Positions 1 to 63,520 of a DNA stretch of 64,000 nt are shown piece after piece; positions within the stretch are counted from its first letter, which is position 1; each line of letters begins with the position of its first letter. Under the pieces are notes generated by a model. The model saw nothing but the letters and a program-made list of their open reading frames with translations, was not told where the DNA came from and did not search any database. The DNA lies in contig NZ_BNEL01000003.1 in the NCBI RefSeq assembly GCF_018327685.1, positions 1,302,001 through 1,366,000 on the forward strand, read 5' to 3'. Position numbers and translations under genes: made by a program. This DNA comes from Streptomyces sp. TS71-3 (GTDB lineage: Bacteria; Actinomycetota; Actinomycetes; Streptomycetales; Streptomycetaceae).

Positions 1-221
1 ATGGCGCCCGAATCTATGGTCTCCAGGCGGTTGATCGTCCGGCACAGCGTCGACTTGCCCGAGCCGGACGGCCCGATGACCACGACCACCTCCCCGCGGG
101 CGATGGTCAGGTCGATGTCCTGGAGGACATGCAACGCGCCGAAGTGCTTGTTGACGTCTCGCAGCACGACCAGGTCGGCCACGGACACGGCGTCGGCCTT
201 GGTAACCGAAACTTCCGTCAT
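1..221 (-). CDS. gluA: Glutamate ABC transporter ATP-binding protein GluA (N-terminal part)
   Basis: Only the first 73 or so codons are inside the window; the gene runs off the left edge. The visible translation begins [20 protein letters not shown] and continues to a perfect Walker A (GPSGSGKST) followed by LCRTINRLE, which is typical of polar amino-acid importer ATPases. The ATG at 219-221 gives the usual family N-terminus. The protein would be the cytosolic ATPase of a glutamate importer. It is divergent from the gluR-gluK pair, an arrangement I recall for gluABCD in S. coelicolor, and that supports the specific name. Family assignment is firm; the glutamate specificity is inferred from context. 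Confidence 0.85.
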
Positions 222-265
222 CGGCCTTTTGCTCCGTCCTCCTCGGTTGGGAGGACAGTAATAAC

Positions 266-306
266 CCCTCAGATCAAGGCGCATTACATCTGAGGGAGAA
301 TTGAGG
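266..306. promoter_or_regulatory. Candidate GluR operator in gluA-gluR intergenic region
   Basis: The 348-bp divergent region (222-569) contains an inverted repeat, CCCTCAGAT (266-274) with ATCTGAGGG (288-296) separated by 13 nt. Overlapping it is a direct repeat TGAGG at 291-295 and 302-306, spaced exactly 11 bp. Direct repeats one helical turn apart are the usual target of OmpR-type response regulators such as the adjacent GluR. The rest of the intergenic region shows no gene. Function is inferred from position and spacing only. Confidence 0.4.
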
Positions 307-23284: not shown

Positions 23285-23790
23285 GGTCTGACTCCCCCTG
23301 GAACGACGTTCGATGCGGCAGCGGTGCGCCGCGGCCGGGCAACGCGCCCGCCCGAACGGGACGGTGCCGCCTTCCGGCCCGGGCACTCTCCGGCCGAGGG
23401 CCGGGCGGTGCCGTGTGCCACCGCCCGGCGGCCCGCCCGAGTGGCCGGTGCCGAACGGCCCCTCACACTATGCCGGTGCCTGTGGGAGACGGCAGACGGG
23501 AGCGCAACGGTTCCGTCACAGCGCCGGTCGGTACGAAGCCGTGGCCAGGGGTGATGTGAGGCGGCCCGGCGGAAACGTTACGGGTCCGGTGGCGCCTGGC
23601 ACGTCGAGATCCCCCGGTGGAGCGGCCGGCTGCGGTGCCGCACCGCCGGACCGTGACGAGGCCCAAGGATCTTCCGCCGGGCCGTGTTCCCGCGCCCTTC
23701 CCGTCGTTGGAAGTGAGGGGGCCGCGGTCGCGCCGTGACCCCGCTCGCCGCGCGCGGCGGGACGCGCTACCTGCGGGAGGAACGACACCC
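23285..23790. other. Intergenic region between protease and siderophore genes
   Basis: 506 bp holding the divergent promoters of protease 2 and the siderophore operon. No gene is credible. I looked for a DmdR1-type iron box (TTAGG-containing palindrome) and saw none. GGGAGGA at 23775-23781 is the ribosome site of the aminotransferase. Confidence 0.5.
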
Positions 23791-25170
23791 ATGGCCGTGA
23801 CCGGCTCTGCGCCCTTGGCGACGACGACCGCGCAGGAGGCCATCCTGCGCCGTCAGGCGGCGCGCGAATCCGCAGCGCGCACCTACGCGCGCGCCCTGCC
23901 CATCGTGCCCGTGCGCGCACGCGGGTTGACGATCGAGGGCGCCGACGGCCGGCGCTACCTGGACTGCCTCTCCGGCGCGGGCACCCTCGCCCTCGGCCAC
24001 AACCACCCCGTGGTGCTCAAGGCCATCCGCACCGTCCTCGACTCCGGCGCGCCTCTCCACGTACTGGATCTCGCGACCCCGGTGAAGGACGCCTTCGTCA
24101 CGGAGCTCTTCGCCACCCTGCCGCGCCCCCTGGCGGACCACGCGCGCATCCAGTTCTGCGGACCGGCCGGCACGGACGCCGTCGAGGCCGCGCTCAAGCT
24201 GGTGCGCGCGGCCACCGGCCGGGCCGGCGTGCTCGCGTTCAGCGGCGCCTACCACGGCATGACGGCCGGCGCGCTGGACGCCTCGGGCGGCGCCGACGGC
24301 TTCGGCGCCGGCCGGGTGGCCCACCTGCCGTTCCCGCAGGACTACCGCTGCCCCTTCGGCGTCGGCGGCCCGCGTGGCGCCGAGCTCGCGGCCCGCTGGA
24401 CCGAGACGCTGCTCGACGACCCCAAGTCCGGCGTCCGCGCGCCGGCCGGCATGATCCTCGAACCCGTGCAGGGCGAGGGCGGGGTGCTGCCCGCCCCCGA
24501 CGACTGGATGCGCAGGATGCGCGCGCTCACGGCGGCGCGGGGCATCCCGCTGATCGCCGACGAGGTGCAGACCGGGGCGGGGCGCACGGGCGCCTTCTGG
24601 GCCGTGCAGCACAGCGGGATCGTCCCGGACGTCATGGTGATGTCCAAGGCCATCGGGGGGAGCATGCCGCTGGCCGTCGTCGTGTACCACGAGGACCTGG
24701 ACGTCTGGCCGCCCGGCGCGCACGCCGGGACGTTCCGCGGCAACCAACTCGCCATGGCGGCGGGAGCGGCCACCCTCGCCCACATCCGCGAGCACGGACT
24801 CGCGGAGCGCGCCGCGCTGCTCGGCACCCGGATGGTCGGCGAGCTCCAGGGCCTCGCGGCGGCCCACCAATGCATCGGAGACGTACGCGGCCGGGGCCTG
24901 ATGATCGGCGTCGAGCTCGTCGACCCGGAGGCGGAGGACACCACCGCCCCCGGCCCTCCGCCCGCTGCGCCCGCCCTGGCGCTCGCCGTCCAGCGGGAGT
25001 GCCTGAGCCGGGGACTGATCGTCGAACTCGGCGGCCGGCACTCCAGCGTCGTACGGCTGCTGCCCCCGCTCACCCTCACCGACGAACAGGCCTCGGCCGT
25101 CCTCGACCGCCTCGCCGACGCCATCGGCGCGGCCGCCCGCACCCACCACCCCGCGCCGGCGCACCCCTGA
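23791..25170 (+). CDS. Diaminobutyrate--2-oxoglutarate aminotransferase (siderophore operon)
   Basis: 459-residue class III PLP aminotransferase. It starts at ATG 23791 behind GGGAGGA. The PLP-binding lysine is Lys286 in VMSKAIGGSMPL; LIADEVQTGAGRTG, CGPAGTDAVEAALKL and AGTFRGNQLAMAAGAATL are typical. Members of this subgroup (RhbA/DAT/EctB-like) convert aspartate semialdehyde and glutamate to L-2,4-diaminobutyrate. No ectoine genes are present, while two siderophore synthetases follow, so it should supply diaminobutyrate to a citrate or related siderophore. It is the first gene of a four-gene operon. Enzyme family is sure; substrate is inferred from neighbours. Confidence 0.85.
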   Translation: MAVTGSAPLATTTAQEAILRRQAARESAARTYARALPIVPVRARGLTIEGADGRRYLDCLSGAGTLALGHNHPVVLKAIRTVLDSGAPLHVLDLATPVKDAFVTELFATLPRPLADHARIQFCGPAGTDAVEAALKLVRAATGRAGVLAFSGAYHGMTAGALDASGGADGFGAGRVAHLPFPQDYRCPFGVGGPRGAELAARWTETLLDDPKSGVRAPAGMILEPVQGEGGVLPAPDDWMRRMRALTAARGIPLIADEVQTGAGRTGAFWAVQHSGIVPDVMVMSKAIGGSMPLAVVVYHEDLDVWPPGAHAGTFRGNQLAMAAGAATLAHIREHGLAERAALLGTRMVGELQGLAAAHQCIGDVRGRGLMIGVELVDPEAEDTTAPGPPPAAPALALAVQRECLSRGLIVELGGRHSSVVRLLPPLTLTDEQASAVLDRLADAIGAAARTHHPAPAHP

Positions 25171-25323
25171 CGGCGCACCGTCCGCCGACGCGCCGTCCCG
25201 GCACCGCCCTCACCCCCCTCTCCCGCCCCTCGCACCCGGACGAAGGCCCGAATAGGGCAGTACCCGGCGTGCCGGACCCGCCGACCGGCACCCGGCACCC
25301 GAACGACCCCCGAGGAAGCACTC

Positions 25324-27336
25324 TTGAACGCCACCCCCGCACCCGACGCCCGTCCCGGCCCCCCTCCGGGCGCCGCCTGTGCCACCACACCGGCGCGGGG
25401 GCCCGCGCAGACCCGCGCGGTGCCACGCCAGACGACCGCCGACCCGGCCGCCGAGCGCCCGCTCGGCGGCACCGCGGACCTGCTGGAGAACGCCGATCCC
25501 GGCACCGCGGCCCAGGCGGCAGGCATCGAGAACCTGCTCCGGTGCTGGGTCCGCGAGAACGACCTGAGCGCACCCGGGCACCCCACCCTGCGCATCCCCC
25601 TCGACGCCGACGGCACCGCCCTCCTCGTCCCCGTGCACTACTGGTCGCCCACCGGGTGGCACCGCTTCGGCCTCCCCGTGCTGGAAGGCACCCCGGACGG
25701 AGCCCCGCCGCCGGACGCCCCCACCCTGGCGGCCCTCCTCGTGCGCGCCGCCGTTCGCAGCTCCACGCCCCCAGACGGACCCCTCGCCGACGGCGGAGAC
25801 CTCGTCGCGAGAGTCTCCGACTCCGTGCGCCGCACCGCCGCGTTCCTGGCCGAAGGCCGCCGCCACGCAGAGGGCGAACCCGATCTCTTCCTGGCCGCCG
25901 AGCAGTCCCTCGTGCTCGGCCACCCGCTGCATCCGACCCCCAAGAGCCGAGAGGGCCTCACCGACGACGAGGCACGGCGCTACTCACCCGAGTTGCGCGG
26001 CTCCTTCCCCGTGCACTGGCTGGCGGTCGACCGCTCCCTGCTCGCCCAGGACTCCGCGTGGACCGAGCGCGGCCGCGTGATCCCCGCCGAACGGCTCACC
26101 CAGCGGCTGGCCGGCGACGGGCTCGCGCTGCCCGCGGGCTGCGCCGCCCTGCCCCTCCACCCCTGGCAGATCCGCGACGTCCTCGACCGCCCCGCCGTCT
26201 CCGCGCTGGTCGACGCGGGCCTCCTGGTGCCCCTCGGTGCACACGGCGAGGCGTGGTTTCCCACCTCGTCCGTGCGCACCGTCTACCGGCCCGGCGCACC
26301 CGCGATGCTCAAGCTCTCCCTGGGCCTGCGCATCACCAACTCCCGCCGCGAGAACCTCCGCAAGGAACTGCTCCGGGGCGTCGAGGTCCACCGGTTGCTG
26401 CGCAGCGGGCTCGACGCGCGGTGGCAGGCGGCCCACCCCGGCTTCGGGATCGTCCGCGACCCGGCCTGGCTCGCCGTGGACGGCACGGACGGCCTCCCGC
26501 TGCCCGGCCTCGACGTGATGATCCGGCACAACCCCTTCGGACCCGGCGACGACGCCTCCTGCGTGGCGGGGCTCGTCTCCCCGCGCCCCGCGCCCGCATC
26601 CAGTGCCGGCTGCCGCGCCGCGCACGCCGGCGTGCCGCGGCAGGCCGGGTCCGGTGCCCCCGGCGCGTACGCCGGCCAGGAGCACGGGAACGCCTCGGCC
26701 ACGGCGATGAGATCCCGGCTCGCCGAGATCGTCACCCGGCTCGCCCACCACACCGGCAGGCCCCGGCACGCCGTCGCCACCGAGTGGTTCCTGCGCTACC
26801 TGGAGCAGGTGGTGCGCCCGGTGCTCTGGCTGGACAGCGAGGCCGGCATCGCCCTGGAGGCACACCAGCAGAACACGCTGGTCCTGCTCGACCCGGACGG
26901 CTGGCCCATCGGCGGCCGCTACCGCGACAACCAGGGCTACTACTTCCGCGCCTCGCGCCGCGCCGAACTCGACCGGCGTCTGCCCGGGATCGGCACGCGG
27001 AGCGACACGTTCGTCTCCGACGACGTCACGGACGAGCGCTTCGCCTACTACCTCGGCATCAACAACGTCCTCGGCCTGATCGGAGCCTTCGGCTCCCAGC
27101 GGCTCGCCGACGAGACGGTGCTGCTGGCGGCCTTCCGCCGCTTCCTGCAACAGGCCGCGTCGGGACCCGGAAAGCTGCGCAGCCCGCTGCCCGGCCGCCT
27201 GCTCGACTCGCCGGTGCTGCGCTGCAAGGCCAACCTGCTGACCCGGCTGCACGGGCTCGACGAACTCGTCGGCCCCGTCGACACCCAGTCCGTCTACGCC
27301 ACCCTGTCCAACCCCCTGCACGCCAGCGGGGCATGA
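25324..27336 (+). CDS. IucA/IucC family siderophore synthetase 1
   Basis: 670 residues, starting at a TTG (25324) with GAGGAAG at 25312-25318. It is an NRPS-independent siderophore (NIS) synthetase that adenylates a carboxylate (citrate or succinate type) and couples it to an amine. Family landmarks are GHPLHPTPKSREGL, ALPLHPWQ, SSVRTVYRP, KLSLGLRITNSRREN and, in the C-terminal FhuF-like part, EAHQQNTLV and YRDNQGYY. The first 45 residues and a segment near 415-460 (after SCVAGLVSPRP) are low-complexity inserts. The HPTPKSREG motif resembles IucA-like enzymes more than DesD. Confidence 0.88.
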   Translation: MNATPAPDARPGPPPGAACATTPARGPAQTRAVPRQTTADPAAERPLGGTADLLENADPGTAAQAAGIENLLRCWVRENDLSAPGHPTLRIPLDADGTALLVPVHYWSPTGWHRFGLPVLEGTPDGAPPPDAPTLAALLVRAAVRSSTPPDGPLADGGDLVARVSDSVRRTAAFLAEGRRHAEGEPDLFLAAEQSLVLGHPLHPTPKSREGLTDDEARRYSPELRGSFPVHWLAVDRSLLAQDSAWTERGRVIPAERLTQRLAGDGLALPAGCAALPLHPWQIRDVLDRPAVSALVDAGLLVPLGAHGEAWFPTSSVRTVYRPGAPAMLKLSLGLRITNSRRENLRKELLRGVEVHRLLRSGLDARWQAAHPGFGIVRDPAWLAVDGTDGLPLPGLDVMIRHNPFGPGDDASCVAGLVSPRPAPASSAGCRAAHAGVPRQAGSGAPGAYAGQEHGNASATAMRSRLAEIVTRLAHHTGRPRHAVATEWFLRYLEQVVRPVLWLDSEAGIALEAHQQNTLVLLDPDGWPIGGRYRDNQGYYFRASRRAELDRRLPGIGTRSDTFVSDDVTDERFAYYLGINNVLGLIGAFGSQRLADETVLLAAFRRFLQQAASGPGKLRSPLPGRLLDSPVLRCKANLLTRLHGLDELVGPVDTQSVYATLSNPLHASGA

Positions 27337-27365
27337 CCCTTCCCCCACCCGAGAGGAGCGTCGCC

Positions 27366-28184
27366 GTGGCTGTCCACCGGTCCCCGAACACCGGCACCGA
27401 GGACGGCACACCGCCGCCCGGCGGCGGCACCGGCGATACCGGCACCCGCGTCCACGTGAGCCCCGGGGGCGGAGGCCCGGCAACCGCCGACGCCGGCGAC
27501 GGCGACACCCTCGGTCTCCCCCTGCCGGAACAACCCTCCGCCACCCCTGCCGGGGCCGGCCTGGCCGAGGCGTCGGCCGGCCCTCCGGCGGGCAGCGGCG
27601 ACCTCCTCGACGGCATCTCCGGCTGGGCACCCGCCGACACCCCCGCGGGGGTCTTCCGGCTGCTGCCCGTGCGCCTCGGCCGCGATCTGCCGCTGATCTG
27701 CCGCTGGATGAACGACCCGGCCGTCGCCGCCTTCTGGGAGCTGTCGGGCTCCCCGTCCGTCACCGAGCACCATCTGCGGCCTCAACTGGAAGGCGACGGC
27801 CGCAGCGTTCCCTGCCTCGGCGTGCTCGACGGCACCCCCATGAGCTACTGGGAGGTCTACCGGGCCGACCTCGACCCCCTGGCCCGCCACTACCCGGCCC
27901 GGCCCGGCGACACCGGGATCCACCTGCTCATCGGCGGTGCCGCCGACCGGGCCCGCGGTCTCGGCAGCCTGCTGCTCGGTGCGGTCACCGACCTCGTGCT
28001 CGACCACCGTCCCGCCTGCCCGCGGGTCGTCGCCGAGCCGGACCTGCGCAACACCCCGTCCGTATCCGCCTTCCTGAGCGCAGGGTTCCGGTTCTCCGCG
28101 GAGATCGAACTCCCGGGCAAACGCGCCGCGCTCATGGTCCACGACCGGGCCCTGCGCCCTGTGCTCCGGCCCGGTCACCGCTAG
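27366..28184 (+). CDS. Siderophore-type GNAT N-acetyltransferase
   Basis: 272 residues from GTG 27366, which has AGGAG 7 nt upstream; an ATG at 27333 overlapping the previous stop is less likely. The first 90 residues are Gly/Pro/Thr-rich and probably disordered. The GNAT domain (about 92-265) has the signature of IucB/RhbD/MbtK enzymes: LPLICRWMNDPAVAAFW, MSYWEVYRADLDPLARHY, the acetyl-CoA loop around RARGLGSLLLGAV, and VVAEPDLRNTPSVSAFLSAGF. Relatives acylate hydroxylamines or amines in hydroxamate siderophores. Here it should modify a diaminobutyrate-derived precursor, but no hydroxylase is encoded nearby. Confidence 0.85.
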   Translation: MAVHRSPNTGTEDGTPPPGGGTGDTGTRVHVSPGGGGPATADAGDGDTLGLPLPEQPSATPAGAGLAEASAGPPAGSGDLLDGISGWAPADTPAGVFRLLPVRLGRDLPLICRWMNDPAVAAFWELSGSPSVTEHHLRPQLEGDGRSVPCLGVLDGTPMSYWEVYRADLDPLARHYPARPGDTGIHLLIGGAADRARGLGSLLLGAVTDLVLDHRPACPRVVAEPDLRNTPSVSAFLSAGFRFSAEIELPGKRAALMVHDRALRPVLRPGHR

Positions 28185-28226: not shown

Positions 28227-30617
28227 GTGCCGAATCCATCCGCCACCCCGCAGCCCGGCCCCGCAGCGGAGCTGTCCGACGCGCCCTGTCCGCCCCGCCC
28301 TTCGTGCCGGAAGGAGGACGCATGGAGCAGGGCCGGCGGCCGCCTGCTCGCCAAGATGCTGGCCGAGTTCGCCTACGAGGAGATCATCCTGCCCACACCC
28401 GGGGAACCGGACGGCACACCGGCCGAGGAGACACGGGAGGCAGAGGAGACACGGGAGGCAGAGGAGACAAGTGGGGGAGTGTCACCGGCCGAAGCCACAC
28501 GGGACTCGGTGACATCAGCCGAAACGTCACCGCCCGACGTGGCACCGGGCGAAACGCCACTTCTGGAGGCGGTACGGGGCGATACGGCGTTGCTGGAGGT
28601 GGCTCCGGACGATACGGCGTTGCTGGAGGTGGCTCCGGACGATACGGCACTGCTGGAGCTGACACCGGGCGAAACGCCACTGCTGGAGGTGGCACCGGGC
28701 GATACGGCACTGCTGGAGGTGACAGCGGGCGACACGGCACTGCTCGCAACAGCACCGCTCGAAACGGCGCCCGGCCACGCGGCACCCTCCGGTGCGTCAA
28801 CACCCCAAACGGCACCGGCGGGCGCGGAGCACCGGGCAGGCAGGGCGCCCGATCCGGCCGGGTCCCCCGAGACCATCGAACCGCCCACCCCCGCCGTCCG
28901 GCCGGCCCCGCACCCTCCGGCAGACGCACGGCCCGAGCCGACGATCCCGTCCGGCGAGGGCCGTTCCTTTTGCGTAGGTCTCGACGACGGCGCCCGAATC
29001 GGGTTCCGGGCCCGGCGCGGCGCGTACGGCGGCTGGCGAGTGGACCCGGGGAGCGTCACGCTGACCGAGCCCGAGAGGGAGGCGAAACCGTTCGCCGACC
29101 CGCTCTCCTTCCTCGTCAGGGCCCGCCGGACACTCGGCGTGGACGGCATCACCCTCGGCCACGTCATCCGCGAGCTCAGCCACACCCTCGCCGCCGACGT
29201 CCGGCTCGACCGGACCGCGGTCTCCGCCGCCGACCTCGCCGACCTCGGCTACGCCGAGCTGGAGGGCCACCAGACCGGGCACCCCTGGCTGGTCCTCAAC
29301 AAGGGCCGGCTCGGCTTCTCGGCCAACGACACCGCGCACTGGGCGCCCGAGAGCCGCAGGCCCACCGCCCTGCCCTGGATCGCTGTGCACACGTCCCTGG
29401 CCACCTACCGCGGCGTCTCCGGCCTCGACACCGCCGACCGGCTCTACGCCCAGGAACTTGCCGGGACCGTCCGCGAGACCTTCGCCGACGTCCTCCGCGC
29501 GCGCGGGCTGGAGCCGCGGGAGTACCTGTACCTTCCCGTCCACCCCTGGCAGTGGGACGAGGTCGTCCTGCCGCTGTTCGGGTCCTCGGTGGCCACCGGC
29601 AAGATCGTTCCGCTGCCGACGGACGGAGATCTGCGGCTTCCCCAGCAGTCCATCCGGACGTTCTGCAACGTCACCCGCCCGGCCCGGCACACCGTGAAGC
29701 TGCCGCTGTCCATCCTGAACACCCTGGTCTGGCGGGGGCTGCCGACGGAACGCACCCTCGCCGCCCCTTCCGTCACCGCCTGGATGCAAGGGCTGCGCGA
29801 CGCCGACCCGTTCCTCAAGGACGAGTGCGGCGTGATCCTGCTGGGGGAGGTCGCCTCGGTGACCGTCCAGCACCCCGTCTACGACGCGCTGCCCGAGGCG
29901 CCGTACCAGTACAAGGAACTGCTCGGCGCGATCTGGCGGGAGCCCCTGCCGCCGCAGCTGGCCGTGGGGGAACGGGCCAGGACGCTGGCGGCGCTGCTGC
30001 ACACCGACCAGGACGGCCGCGCGGTCACCGCGGAACTCGTCGCGCGCTCCGGGCTGCCTCCCCGTGTCTGGTTGCGGCACCTCTTCGCCGCGCTGCTGCC
30101 CCCGCTGCTGCGCTACCTGTACCACTACGGCGTCGTCTTCTCGCCGCACGGCGAGAACGCCATCGTCGTCTTCGACGAGCAGGACGTGCCGGTGCGGCTC
30201 GCGGTCAAGGACTTCGTGGACGACGTCAACGTCAGCGCCAAGCCGCTGCCCGAGCACGACCTCATGCCCGGCGACGTGCGCTCGGTACTGCTGACCGAGC
30301 CTCCGGCGTTCCTCACGCAGTTCATCCATTCGGGTCTTTTCGTGGGCGTCTTCCGTTACCTGGCTCCCCTCTGCGAAGAGCAACTCGGCGTCCCCGAGGC
30401 CGAGTTCTGGTCGCTGGTGCGGGCGGAGATCGTGCGGCACCAGGAGCGCTTTCCTCGCCTGAAGGACCGTTACGCCGTGTTTGACCTGCTTACTCCGCGT
30501 ATCGAGCGGCTCTGCCTGAACCGGAACCGGTTGCATCTGGACGGCTACCGGGACCGCGCCCAGCGGCCGCACGCCGCCGTGCACGGGACTGTCGCCAATC
30601 CGCTGTATCTTCCTTGA
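28227..30617 (+). CDS. IucA/IucC family siderophore synthetase 2, with repeat insertion
   Basis: 796 residues with a GTG start and GAGGAG 5 nt upstream. The catalytic region resembles DesD/IucC-type NIS synthetases: LAKMLAEFAYEEI, then GHPWLVLNKGRLGFSAND, YLPVHPWQWDE, QQSIRTFCNVT, KLPLSILNT and, C-terminally, VFSPHGENAIVVF and KDFVDDVNV. DesD-like proteins are about 600 residues; the excess is a roughly 190-residue insertion (58-246) between the first helix and the strand starting SFCVGLDDG. The insertion contains hexapeptide repeats (EETREA) and eight decapeptide repeats. The reading frame is maintained throughout and all core motifs are present, so the enzyme may be active. It ends the siderophore operon. 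Confidence 0.88.
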   Translation: MPNPSATPQPGPAAELSDAPCPPRPSCRKEDAWSRAGGRLLAKMLAEFAYEEIILPTPGEPDGTPAEETREAEETREAEETSGGVSPAEATRDSVTSAETSPPDVAPGETPLLEAVRGDTALLEVAPDDTALLEVAPDDTALLELTPGETPLLEVAPGDTALLEVTAGDTALLATAPLETAPGHAAPSGASTPQTAPAGAEHRAGRAPDPAGSPETIEPPTPAVRPAPHPPADARPEPTIPSGEGRSFCVGLDDGARIGFRARRGAYGGWRVDPGSVTLTEPEREAKPFADPLSFLVRARRTLGVDGITLGHVIRELSHTLAADVRLDRTAVSAADLADLGYAELEGHQTGHPWLVLNKGRLGFSANDTAHWAPESRRPTALPWIAVHTSLATYRGVSGLDTADRLYAQELAGTVRETFADVLRARGLEPREYLYLPVHPWQWDEVVLPLFGSSVATGKIVPLPTDGDLRLPQQSIRTFCNVTRPARHTVKLPLSILNTLVWRGLPTERTLAAPSVTAWMQGLRDADPFLKDECGVILLGEVASVTVQHPVYDALPEAPYQYKELLGAIWREPLPPQLAVGERARTLAALLHTDQDGRAVTAELVARSGLPPRVWLRHLFAALLPPLLRYLYHYGVVFSPHGENAIVVFDEQDVPVRLAVKDFVDDVNVSAKPLPEHDLMPGDVRSVLLTEPPAFLTQFIHSGLFVGVFRYLAPLCEEQLGVPEAEFWSLVRAEIVRHQERFPRLKDRYAVFDLLTPRIERLCLNRNRLHLDGYRDRAQRPHAAVHGTVANPLYLP
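28425..28460. repeat. 18-bp tandem repeat coding EETREA
   Basis: Two perfect 18-bp copies (28425-28442, 28443-28460) followed by a partial third encode EETREA twice and then EETSGG, inside the insertion of siderophore synthetase 2. Confidence 0.85.
28539..28778. repeat. 30-bp coding minisatellite (eight units) in siderophore synthetase 2
   Basis: Units start at 28539 and recur every 30 bp to 28778. They encode a decapeptide of consensus VAPGDTALLE; units 3 and 4 have identical peptides and differ by one base (GCG versus GCA). Units 1-7 are complete and unit 8 is degenerate (TAPLETAPGH). The repeats keep the frame and avoid stops. They fall inside the insertion that interrupts the synthetase N-terminal domain. 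Confidence 0.95.
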
Positions 30618-43599: not shown

Positions 43600-43654
43600 G
43601 AAGTTGCTGCCCGGGCGCCGGTTTTCCGCTCACCCGCATAACGGAGAGTCACCA

Positions 43655-44278
43655 ATGGTTACTTCACGCTGGACGGCCGCCTCCCCTCGCCCGTCCACCG
43701 TGCGCCGCCGTGGCGCCGTCCTGGAACGCGCCATCCTCGATGCCGCCCTGGAGCAGCTCAGCACGGTCGGGTGGAACGGCCTCACCATGGAGGGCGTCGC
43801 CGCCGGCGCACAGACAGGCAAGGCCGCCGTGTACCGGCGCTGGCCGTCCAAGGAGGACCTCGTCGCGGACGCGTTGCGGTCCGGTCTGCCGCGCCTCGAC
43901 AGCCCGCCGGACCTCGGCAGCGTCCGCGAGGACCTGATCGCCCTCTGCCATCTGGTGCGCGACACGATGTACTCGCGCCCCGGCTTCGCCCTCCGCTCCG
44001 TCCTCCACGAGTGCGACGCCACCACCGCGGAACGCTTCCACGACCTCATCGTGGACGGCGTGATCGAACCCACCGTCGCGCTGATCGAAGAGGTGGTGCG
44101 CCGCGGCATCGAACGCGGCGAGGTGAGGCCCGAAGCCGCGCACTCGGTCGTCTATGACGCTATTCCGGCCATGATGATGTACCGGTCAAAGGTGTGCGCA
44201 TGTGAATGGGAGACGAAGGATCTGGAAGAAATGGTTGACCGGTTGATGATTCCGCTGCTACTGCCTCAGCAGGCCTGA
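43655..44278 (+). CDS. TetR-family repressor of the divergent exporter
   Basis: 207 residues from ATG 43655 with GGAGAG upstream. The helix-turn-helix is LERAILDAALEQLSTVGWNGLTMEGVAAGAQTGKAAVYRRWPSKEDLV. The C-terminal ligand domain (about 85-200) is of the TetR_C_11 type with the VRDTMYSRPGFALRSVLHECDA segment. It is expected to repress itself and the MFS exporter through the two shared operators, and to be released by an exporter substrate. The regulation is inferred from the divergent layout and operator positions. Confidence 0.92.
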   Translation: MVTSRWTAASPRPSTVRRRGAVLERAILDAALEQLSTVGWNGLTMEGVAAGAQTGKAAVYRRWPSKEDLVADALRSGLPRLDSPPDLGSVREDLIALCHLVRDTMYSRPGFALRSVLHECDATTAERFHDLIVDGVIEPTVALIEEVVRRGIERGEVRPEAAHSVVYDAIPAMMMYRSKVCACEWETKDLEEMVDRLMIPLLLPQQA

Positions 44279-44307
44279 CGGGCCGCGGCGCCGCGGCGGC
44301 GCGACGT

Positions 44308-44475
44308 GCGGTGCTGAGGTGTGCGGTGGCGCGGTGTGCGGCGGCGCTGAGGTGTGGGGTGGCGCTGAGGCGTGTGGTGCTGAGGTGTCCGGTCGTGCTG
44401 AGGCGTGTGGTGGCGCGGCGTGTGGTGCTGGGGTGTGCGGTGGTGCTGAGGCGTGTGGTGGCGCTGAGGGCGGGT
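44308..44475. repeat. Degenerate G/T-rich tandem repeat, no gene
   Basis: About eight degenerate units of CTGAGGYGTGYGGTGG type, almost free of A, on the + strand. It lies in the 664-bp gap between the TetR gene and rnhB. Frames on both strands give only Arg/Val/Cys or His/Pro/Thr repeats and are not genes. The remaining gap to 44942 is GC-rich with nothing recognisable except a possible rnhB -10 (TACGCT, 44928-44933). Confidence 0.7.
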
Positions 44476-46407: not shown

Positions 46408-46826
46408 ACCTCGTCGATACGGGCCACCGCAGGGTGGCCCCTCGGCGAGCCGGCGGTCGGCAGAAGCCGGCCGTGCGGCGCGGTTTCAGGGCCGTCGCCG
46501 GCCATGAGCGGACCCGGCTGCGGCGGGGGCTGACTCGGGGTTCGGGGTCGGAGCAGGTCGGTGGACGTCTCCATCGGTCGGTGTGTCTTCGACGTCGGTG
46601 GGTGTCTTCGGTGGCGGTGCGTGTCGCCGACTGCGGTGATGTGAATGCGCCGTCGAGGGGCTCGGACGGCCATCCGAGCGCTTCAGGCGTGCGGAGCGCT
46701 TCAGCCGTTCGGCCCCAGGCCTACGGGGCGGTGCCGTTCAGACGTAGAGAACGGTCGGGCGGCGCGGGCTCGTGGGCGGCCGTGCTTTTGTCGTGGCCGC
46801 GGTTGGTGGGGGCCCGTGCTGGGCGC

Positions 46827-46964
46827 GCGCCGCCCGTGCGTGCTGGTGGGCGCCGCCCGTGCTGGTCGTGGTGCGCCGCCCGTGCGTGCTGGTGGGCGCC
46901 GCCCGTGCTGGTCGTGGTGCGCCGCCCGTGCGTGCTGGTGGGCGCCGCCCGTGCTGGTCGTGGT
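46827..46964. repeat. 46-bp tandem repeat, three copies
   Basis: Three 46-bp units (46827-46872, 46873-46918, 46919-46964) appear identical. Each unit consists of two related halves containing CCGCCCGTG and GCTGGT. The period is not a multiple of three, so it is not coding. The surrounding 46408-47182 region (775 bp) has no gene; downstream (47060-47140) there is more GGCTCC/CTGGCCCC repeat sequence. Confidence 0.9.
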
Positions 46965-47182
46965 GCACCGGCCGTGGGTGCCGTCCGTGGGTTTGCGGCC
47001 CTGGTCTTGGTCCGTCGGCGCCTGCGTGCACGGGTCTCGATCCGATGCTTCGGGTGACCCCGTCCTCGCGCCCGGCTCCGGCCCTGAGCCCGGCTCCGAC
47101 GCCGCCCCTGGCCCCGGCTCTGACGCCGTCCCTGGCTCCCACCCCGTTATGGGCGATCCTGTTATGCCCTCGCGGGGGTGCC

Positions 47183-57475: not shown

Positions 57476-59035
<1,560 letters not shown>

Positions 59036-63131: not shown

Positions 63132-63264
63132 GGCGCCCGCGCGCGCAGGGGCGCCGGGTCTGTCGGTCCGGCCGGTTCCCGGTGGCGGCTCCGCGGGGCC
63201 GGGGCGCTGTCTCCGGCGGTTCCGGCGCGTGCGGCTCTGTTCGGCGGCTTCGGCTCGGGCCGCC

Positions 63265-63332
63265 GGCACGAGGCCCCGGGGTGGTGCCTCGTGCGGGCGG
63301 CACGAGGCCCCGGGGTAGTGCCTCGTGCGGGC
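63265..63332 (+). repeat. Tandem 34-bp repeat, each unit a hairpin, downstream of parE
   Basis: Two 34-bp copies (63265-63298 and 63299-63332) differ at one base. Each folds into a 9-bp stem GCACGAGGC / GCCTCGTGC with an 11-nt loop. They lie 133 bp after parE and probably serve as a double terminator. The rest of the 389-bp gap (63132-63520) contains no gene. Confidence 0.85.
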
Positions 63333-63520
63333 GGCACGAGCACGCTCCACCCTTGGGTGGAGTTCAGGATCCACCTGGGTTCCACCTCCGCTCCGATCTC
63401 TTGACCAGGCCTTTTCCGTAGTGTCGACGTCGTTGCCCGGCTTCGGCGGCTGCTCGGTGCGTTCCTGCGCGGACGGCGCCCGCGGCCGACCGTCCTCGTC
63501 GTTCGCTCACGGAGGCCCTG

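Follow-up and report, generated by a model that had tools for sequence, protein, structure and literature searches.

An in-frame coding minisatellite at a length-variable linker of a Streptomyces NIS siderophore synthetase

The window, which is the whole 64-kb stretch of DNA that was analysed, contains a gene cluster with two predicted NIS synthetases, and the second of these carries a long insertion near its N terminus. The features referred to below are the following.

23617..25170, + strand: diaminobutyrate--2-oxoglutarate aminotransferase-like gene of the same cluster (PF00202; TIGR00709 with 470.3 bits, cut-off 401.6)
25324..27336, + strand: first NIS synthetase of the cluster (PF04183, PF06276)
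27678..28112, + strand: GNAT acyltransferase domain (Acetyltransf_8; PF13523, 2.6e-45; residues 937-1081 of ORF 24870-28184)
28227..30617, + strand: IucA/IucC (NIS) siderophore synthetase, 796 aa, GTG start, single open frame
28317..28406, + strand: putative conserved N-terminal helix segment, residues 31-60 (weak alignment to DesD 33-62)
28407..28955, + strand: length-variable insertion, residues ~61-243, absent from DesD and inside the most length-variable interval
28421..28469, + strand: 18-bp tandem repeat encoding the hexapeptide EETREA, two complete copies plus part of another (TRF and sequence)
28539..28778, + strand: 30-bp coding minisatellite, consensus VAPGDTALLE, 7 recognisable decapeptides and a decayed eighth (TRF and unit list)
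28581..28640, + strand: two identical head-to-tail 30-bp copies, the latest visible duplication
28956..30614, + strand: synthetase catalytic core, unbroken (ORF, Pfam, DesD alignment, invariant columns)

The aminotransferase gene, the first synthetase and the GNAT domain lie upstream of 28227-30617. The ORF holding the GNAT domain terminates at 28184, and the GTG start at 28227 is preceded by GAGGAG. The nearest relative found, G045, has the same arrangement when compared by eye: the aminotransferase, synthetase 1 and synthetase 2, and then the helicase-like gene that also follows them in the window. In S. coelicolor the same cluster is presumably SCO5799-5801.

By its Pfam and DesD matches, the product of 28227-30617 is a predicted IucA/IucC-type siderophore synthetase. 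Both family domains were found above their curated cut-offs in the unbroken frame, PF04183 with 4.6e-71 and 239.6 bits (cut-off 25, profile 2-239 of 239) and PF06276 with 9.4e-39 and 133.9 bits (cut-off 25.2, profile 3-158 of 161). The enzyme is expected to be cytoplasmic. DesD (11iz_B, 612 aa) was matched by phmmer with an E value of 1.4e-104. The alignment came in two pieces, of which residues 31-60 corresponded weakly to DesD 33-62 (6.1 bits) and residues 244-793 to DesD 64-609. Therefore, the excess is one insertion of ~183 residues (about 61-243) at a single DesD position, which confirms the single in-frame insertion described in an earlier sequence-only reading of this DNA. The core also aligned with AlcC and other solved NIS synthetases, and in DesD both flanks of the insertion aligned too. 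That reading had named an interruption of the core motifs as a reason to abandon its proposal; these motifs are continuous in the Pfam domains and in the DesD alignment of the core, so the proposal stands in this respect. Residues 31-60, which were interpreted as a helix there and by us, would form the N-terminal flank.

The protein database holds a shorter version of this enzyme. Entry P0001 has 580 aa and begins at residue 217 (ATC at 28875, inside the insert); with 216 residues of the open frame dropped, the N-terminal helix and most of the insert are missing. If the true protein started there, the repeat segment would not be translated, and two related loci, L008 and L018, in which helix and core by eye seem to lie in different frames, through either a sequencing error or a true break, could be read in the same way. 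However, the frame is open throughout and ATC is a very poor start codon. The helix and a PNPSA-type start are common to relatives whose database proteins include them; P0002, for example, has the PNPSA start of the 796-aa synthetase. GC content by codon position was ordered in the N terminus (0.70/0.62/0.87) as in the core (0.74/0.47/0.92), and less clearly so in the insert (0.80/0.64/0.73). We regard a start inside the insert as improbable, and P0001 as a warning that gene calls may shorten such genes.

Two tandem arrays were detected in the insert. The 18-bp array (28421-28469; 2.7 copies, 96% match, TRF score 91) contains the EETREA hexapeptides of the earlier reading as two full copies plus a partial third. 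The 30-bp array was reported by TRF for 28539-28744 with 6.9 copies, 84% match and a score of 265, whereas the insert, codon-shuffled 200 times, scored 79 at most. Its units are arranged head to tail within the ORF, above chance, as expected of a coding minisatellite. Unit lengths of 18 and 30 bp are, as had been claimed, multiples of three, so the arrays do not lend themselves to phase-variable frame switching. Eight VAPGDTALLE decapeptides had been counted; seven units are clear, but the eighth (TAPLETAPGH) is badly decayed. Units 3 and 4 (28599-28628 and 28629-28658) were said to differ by one base and in fact differ by two. With the register shifted, the 30-bp copies at 28581-28610 and 28611-28640 match at every base. 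By eye, the array may extend into further decayed decapeptides on both sides, VSPAEATRDS and VTSAETSPPD upstream and AAPSGASTPQ downstream.

Searches at E 0.001 placed the 30-bp array at a single location in the genome, with no further copies, and found no other protein carrying the insert among 8000 candidates scored. The full-length 796-aa protein was likewise absent among these candidates, so that the 580-aa version is apparently the only one in the database. No second strain of the species was found (database cluster of one member; insert search without matches). The identity of the two 30-bp copies would fit an assembly artefact of a short repeat. However, the remaining units differ among themselves, the genome was assembled in 3 contigs, comparable arrays occur at the same site in relatives, and 240 bp are spanned by ordinary long reads. 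We therefore give an artefact almost no credence.

The corresponding linker was compared across the genus. At E 0.001, where paralogues are counted too, core searches matched 150 of 150 genus genomes; at E 1e-200 they matched 191 of 392 genomes, a set that overlaps the first. The loci included 80 named ones and 80 places taken by hand from the E 1e-200 list; the hand-taken loci represent its better-scoring part and not a random draw, the contig-edge G205 and the weaker remainder being left out. Of the 207 loci (L001-L208, L128 excepted), 197 gave a parsable linker, and the ten that failed the motifs were dropped (L008, L018, L099, L132, L179, L185, L189, L197, L206 and L207). The dropped loci include fragments and loci with short linkers; the linker of L207 looks repeat-like. 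Removing identical rows, many of them from a genome represented in two collections, left 176 distinct sequences, among them the window's. A full-length filter left 110 sequences for the anchor-interval and core-identity comparisons.

Among the 176 distinct sequences, linker length ranged from 24 to 209 aa with a median of 31, and the window's linker was the longest. More than 60 aa were found in 30 linkers and more than 100 aa in 13. Tandem repeats with a TRF score of 40 or more were present in 43 linkers, where codon shuffling gave a mean of 7.8 positives (range 4-14, 20 rounds). They occurred in 37 of 55 linkers of 45 aa or more versus 6 of 121 shorter ones, and the period was a multiple of 3 in 41 of the 43. 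At the same threshold, repeats covered 16.3% of linker bases versus 1.3% of core bases; a repeat was found somewhere in 56 of 176 cores, which hold about nine times more bases. As judged by eye, the repeat units mostly differ by lineage, with EP, QP, SASDQPSP, TEAGTAPR and ADTQAH as examples. In the 110 full-length sequences, length varied most between anchor columns 56..248, with an SD of 32.2. This interval was followed by two neighbouring N-terminal loops, 276..288 (SD 12.1) and 253..258 (SD 7.4), and all other intervals were below 1. Residues 276-288 (29052-29090) form a second length-variable loop with 6-72 aa between anchors in relatives, and this loop is long in P0065.

The length range and the different repeats at the same site support the length-variable linker that had been offered as one option by the sequence-only reading. 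Its description of an insertion into synthetase 2 holds insofar as the insertion is real, but the feature is not confined to this gene: across the genus this site is a hotspot, and the window contains the longest case seen. The orthologs show one linker that has changed repeatedly in length and content, often by means of repeats in multiples of three, while its flanks were kept.

Differences were also observed between close relatives. The synthetases of G045 and the window share 88.6% core identity, with linkers of 96 and 209 aa. Aligned locally as DNA, these linkers matched best over 121 bases near the 3' end, past the array, and for the G045 linker (L002) an 18-bp repeat but no 30-bp repeat was reported by TRF. 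Within the 110 cores, 24 pairs had 94-97% identity; 5 of them had linkers at least 20 aa apart in length, and 10 had linkers of equal length. Three pairs had 97% or more, with linker differences of 3, 3 and 17 aa. At 96.7% core identity, L060 and L091 have linkers of 24 and 40 aa, and the 16-aa difference lies in a 24-bp repeat. The linkers of L003 and L035 differ by 12 bp within a GAGCCG run. On a FastTree core tree, in which 36 of 107 inner branches are weak, at least 15 changes between long and short linkers were counted with a 45-aa cut and 8 with a 75-aa cut, as counted on the observed tree alone. The window and G045 fall into a group of 16 (support 81) in which all linkers have 61 aa or more, and the long linker could have been kept in this group.

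The DesD paralogue served as a comparison. It was found in 47 of 61 genus genomes (E 1e-180), and 26 of the 30 loci given could be parsed. DesD lacks a long linker: the same loop measured 32-38 aa in these 26 Streptomyces loci. Its SD was 1.34, as against 29.7 for the family of the window's synthetase. The two loops were delimited by different end points; this affects the lengths obtained, but hardly their scatter. The DesD proteins of G045 and the window's genome are also 88% identical, and their loops have 33 and 33 aa.

Selection was estimated for ten hand-picked close pairs by the Nei-Gojobori method. The pooled dN/dS of linkers was 0.60 and that of cores 0.11; single-pair linker values ranged from 0.31 to 2.82, with uncertain linker alignments. 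Among array units 1-7 the value was 0.62. Pairwise differences in the array by codon position 1/2/3 numbered 42/34/52, too few and too little independent of each other for a test of selection. A linker dN/dS below 1 leaves room for some constraint. Neutral slippage, another of the options listed by the earlier reading, is supported by the ortholog length range, by the differing repeats at one site and by the weak selection. In a charge-hydropathy analysis the whole insert fell on the disordered side and the array alone (residues 105-184) on the folded side. Of the 55 long linkers, 41 fell on the disordered side and 14 on the folded side.

A functional role for linker length was considered as well. 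The helix would dock, linker length or charge would be selected, and gain or loss of repeats would adjust assembly or activity. The RLLAKxxxEFAY-like helix motif is retained by long-linker relatives, beyond linkers of up to 209 aa, in rows that were picked by that very motif; one clade of 16 members has long linkers only; and 49 of 55 linkers are acidic. However, acidity is just as common N-terminal of the helix (43 of 52) and in another loop of the same proteins (25 of 31), and it was rejected as a functional sign. In addition, linker content varies by lineage and linker dN/dS is ~0.6. This explanation appears unlikely, though it deserves to be kept in mind. The sequence-only reading had also suggested an adhesive segment or a tuning knob, and no evidence for either was found, the acidity being common to other loops. 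In a more specific and quite speculative version, to which we assign a small chance, the N-terminal helix would be a tethered docking element, unlike in DesD, its reach would be retuned by minisatellites, and a lineage-specific tether would couple the two synthetases of the cluster.

We favor, with a probability of about 0.75, the view that in-frame tandem duplications have recurred, almost neutrally, in a linker that is permissive and probably unstructured. The segment would be an exposed connection leading from the N-terminal helix to the first strand. Short local duplications would arise in many places, presumably by replication slippage or unequal exchange, and those that keep the frame and fall in the linker would survive because its length and letters matter little. 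The window's array would then be an old 30-bp minisatellite, decayed at its edges and freshly duplicated in its middle. In-frame tandem duplication under weak constraint is the simplest account. The coding minisatellite itself is real and, on the sequences compared, is the longest example seen of a recurrent event at a permissive linker of Streptomyces NIS synthetases.

Repeats of this kind are already known (PMC9879509, PMC7230257). The Borg elements are described as having fast-evolving ORF tandem repeats of independent origin with units divisible by three, which commonly form disordered segments and have a hotspot in homologous proteins (PMC9879509). The synthetase linker resembles them in its in-ORF repeats, which likewise evolve fast and have separate origins, in its multiple-of-three units and in its position at a hotspot of homologous proteins. 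However, Borg repeats are described as perfect and under very strong selection (PMC9879509), whereas the linker has decayed units and a dN/dS of ~0.6; Borgs are giant extrachromosomal elements of archaea, and the present case is a chromosomal bacterial enzyme. In the available part of a census of protein tandem repeats, these are rich in disorder-promoting residues, lie in unstructured stretches and stem mostly from duplication (PMC7230257). The linker repeats would share these traits, but the census is general, and the NIS family is not described in that part. Repeat number likewise sets the length of bacterial periscope proteins, whose repeats, as far as the consulted text goes, are folded and belong to surface proteins (PMC8201768), in contrast to the short low-complexity repeat in a synthetase. 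No earlier description of repeats at the NIS-synthetase linker was found in literature listings of open-licence papers, and the retrieved text of the DesD structure paper does not mention the N terminus by that word (PMC9571020). The orthologs provide a natural length series, from 24 up to 209 residues at the same place in one enzyme, where a paralogue of the same genus is nearly constant, and it allows one to ask whether repeat-driven linker growth is merely tolerated or functional.

Other tandem repeats were noted in the window. A 46-bp repeat at 46815-46981 (3.4 copies, 97% match, TRF) has a unit that is not a multiple of three. Overlapping repeats of 15/18/33/48 bp at 44306-44469 lie just after ORF 43604-44278, which looks TetR-like by eye. 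A 15/45-bp repeat with many AAG codons at 57867-57974 may encode a lysine- and alanine-rich tail, and a 34-bp repeat at 63264-63340 (2.3 copies, 97%) contains, by eye, a short inverted repeat within its unit.
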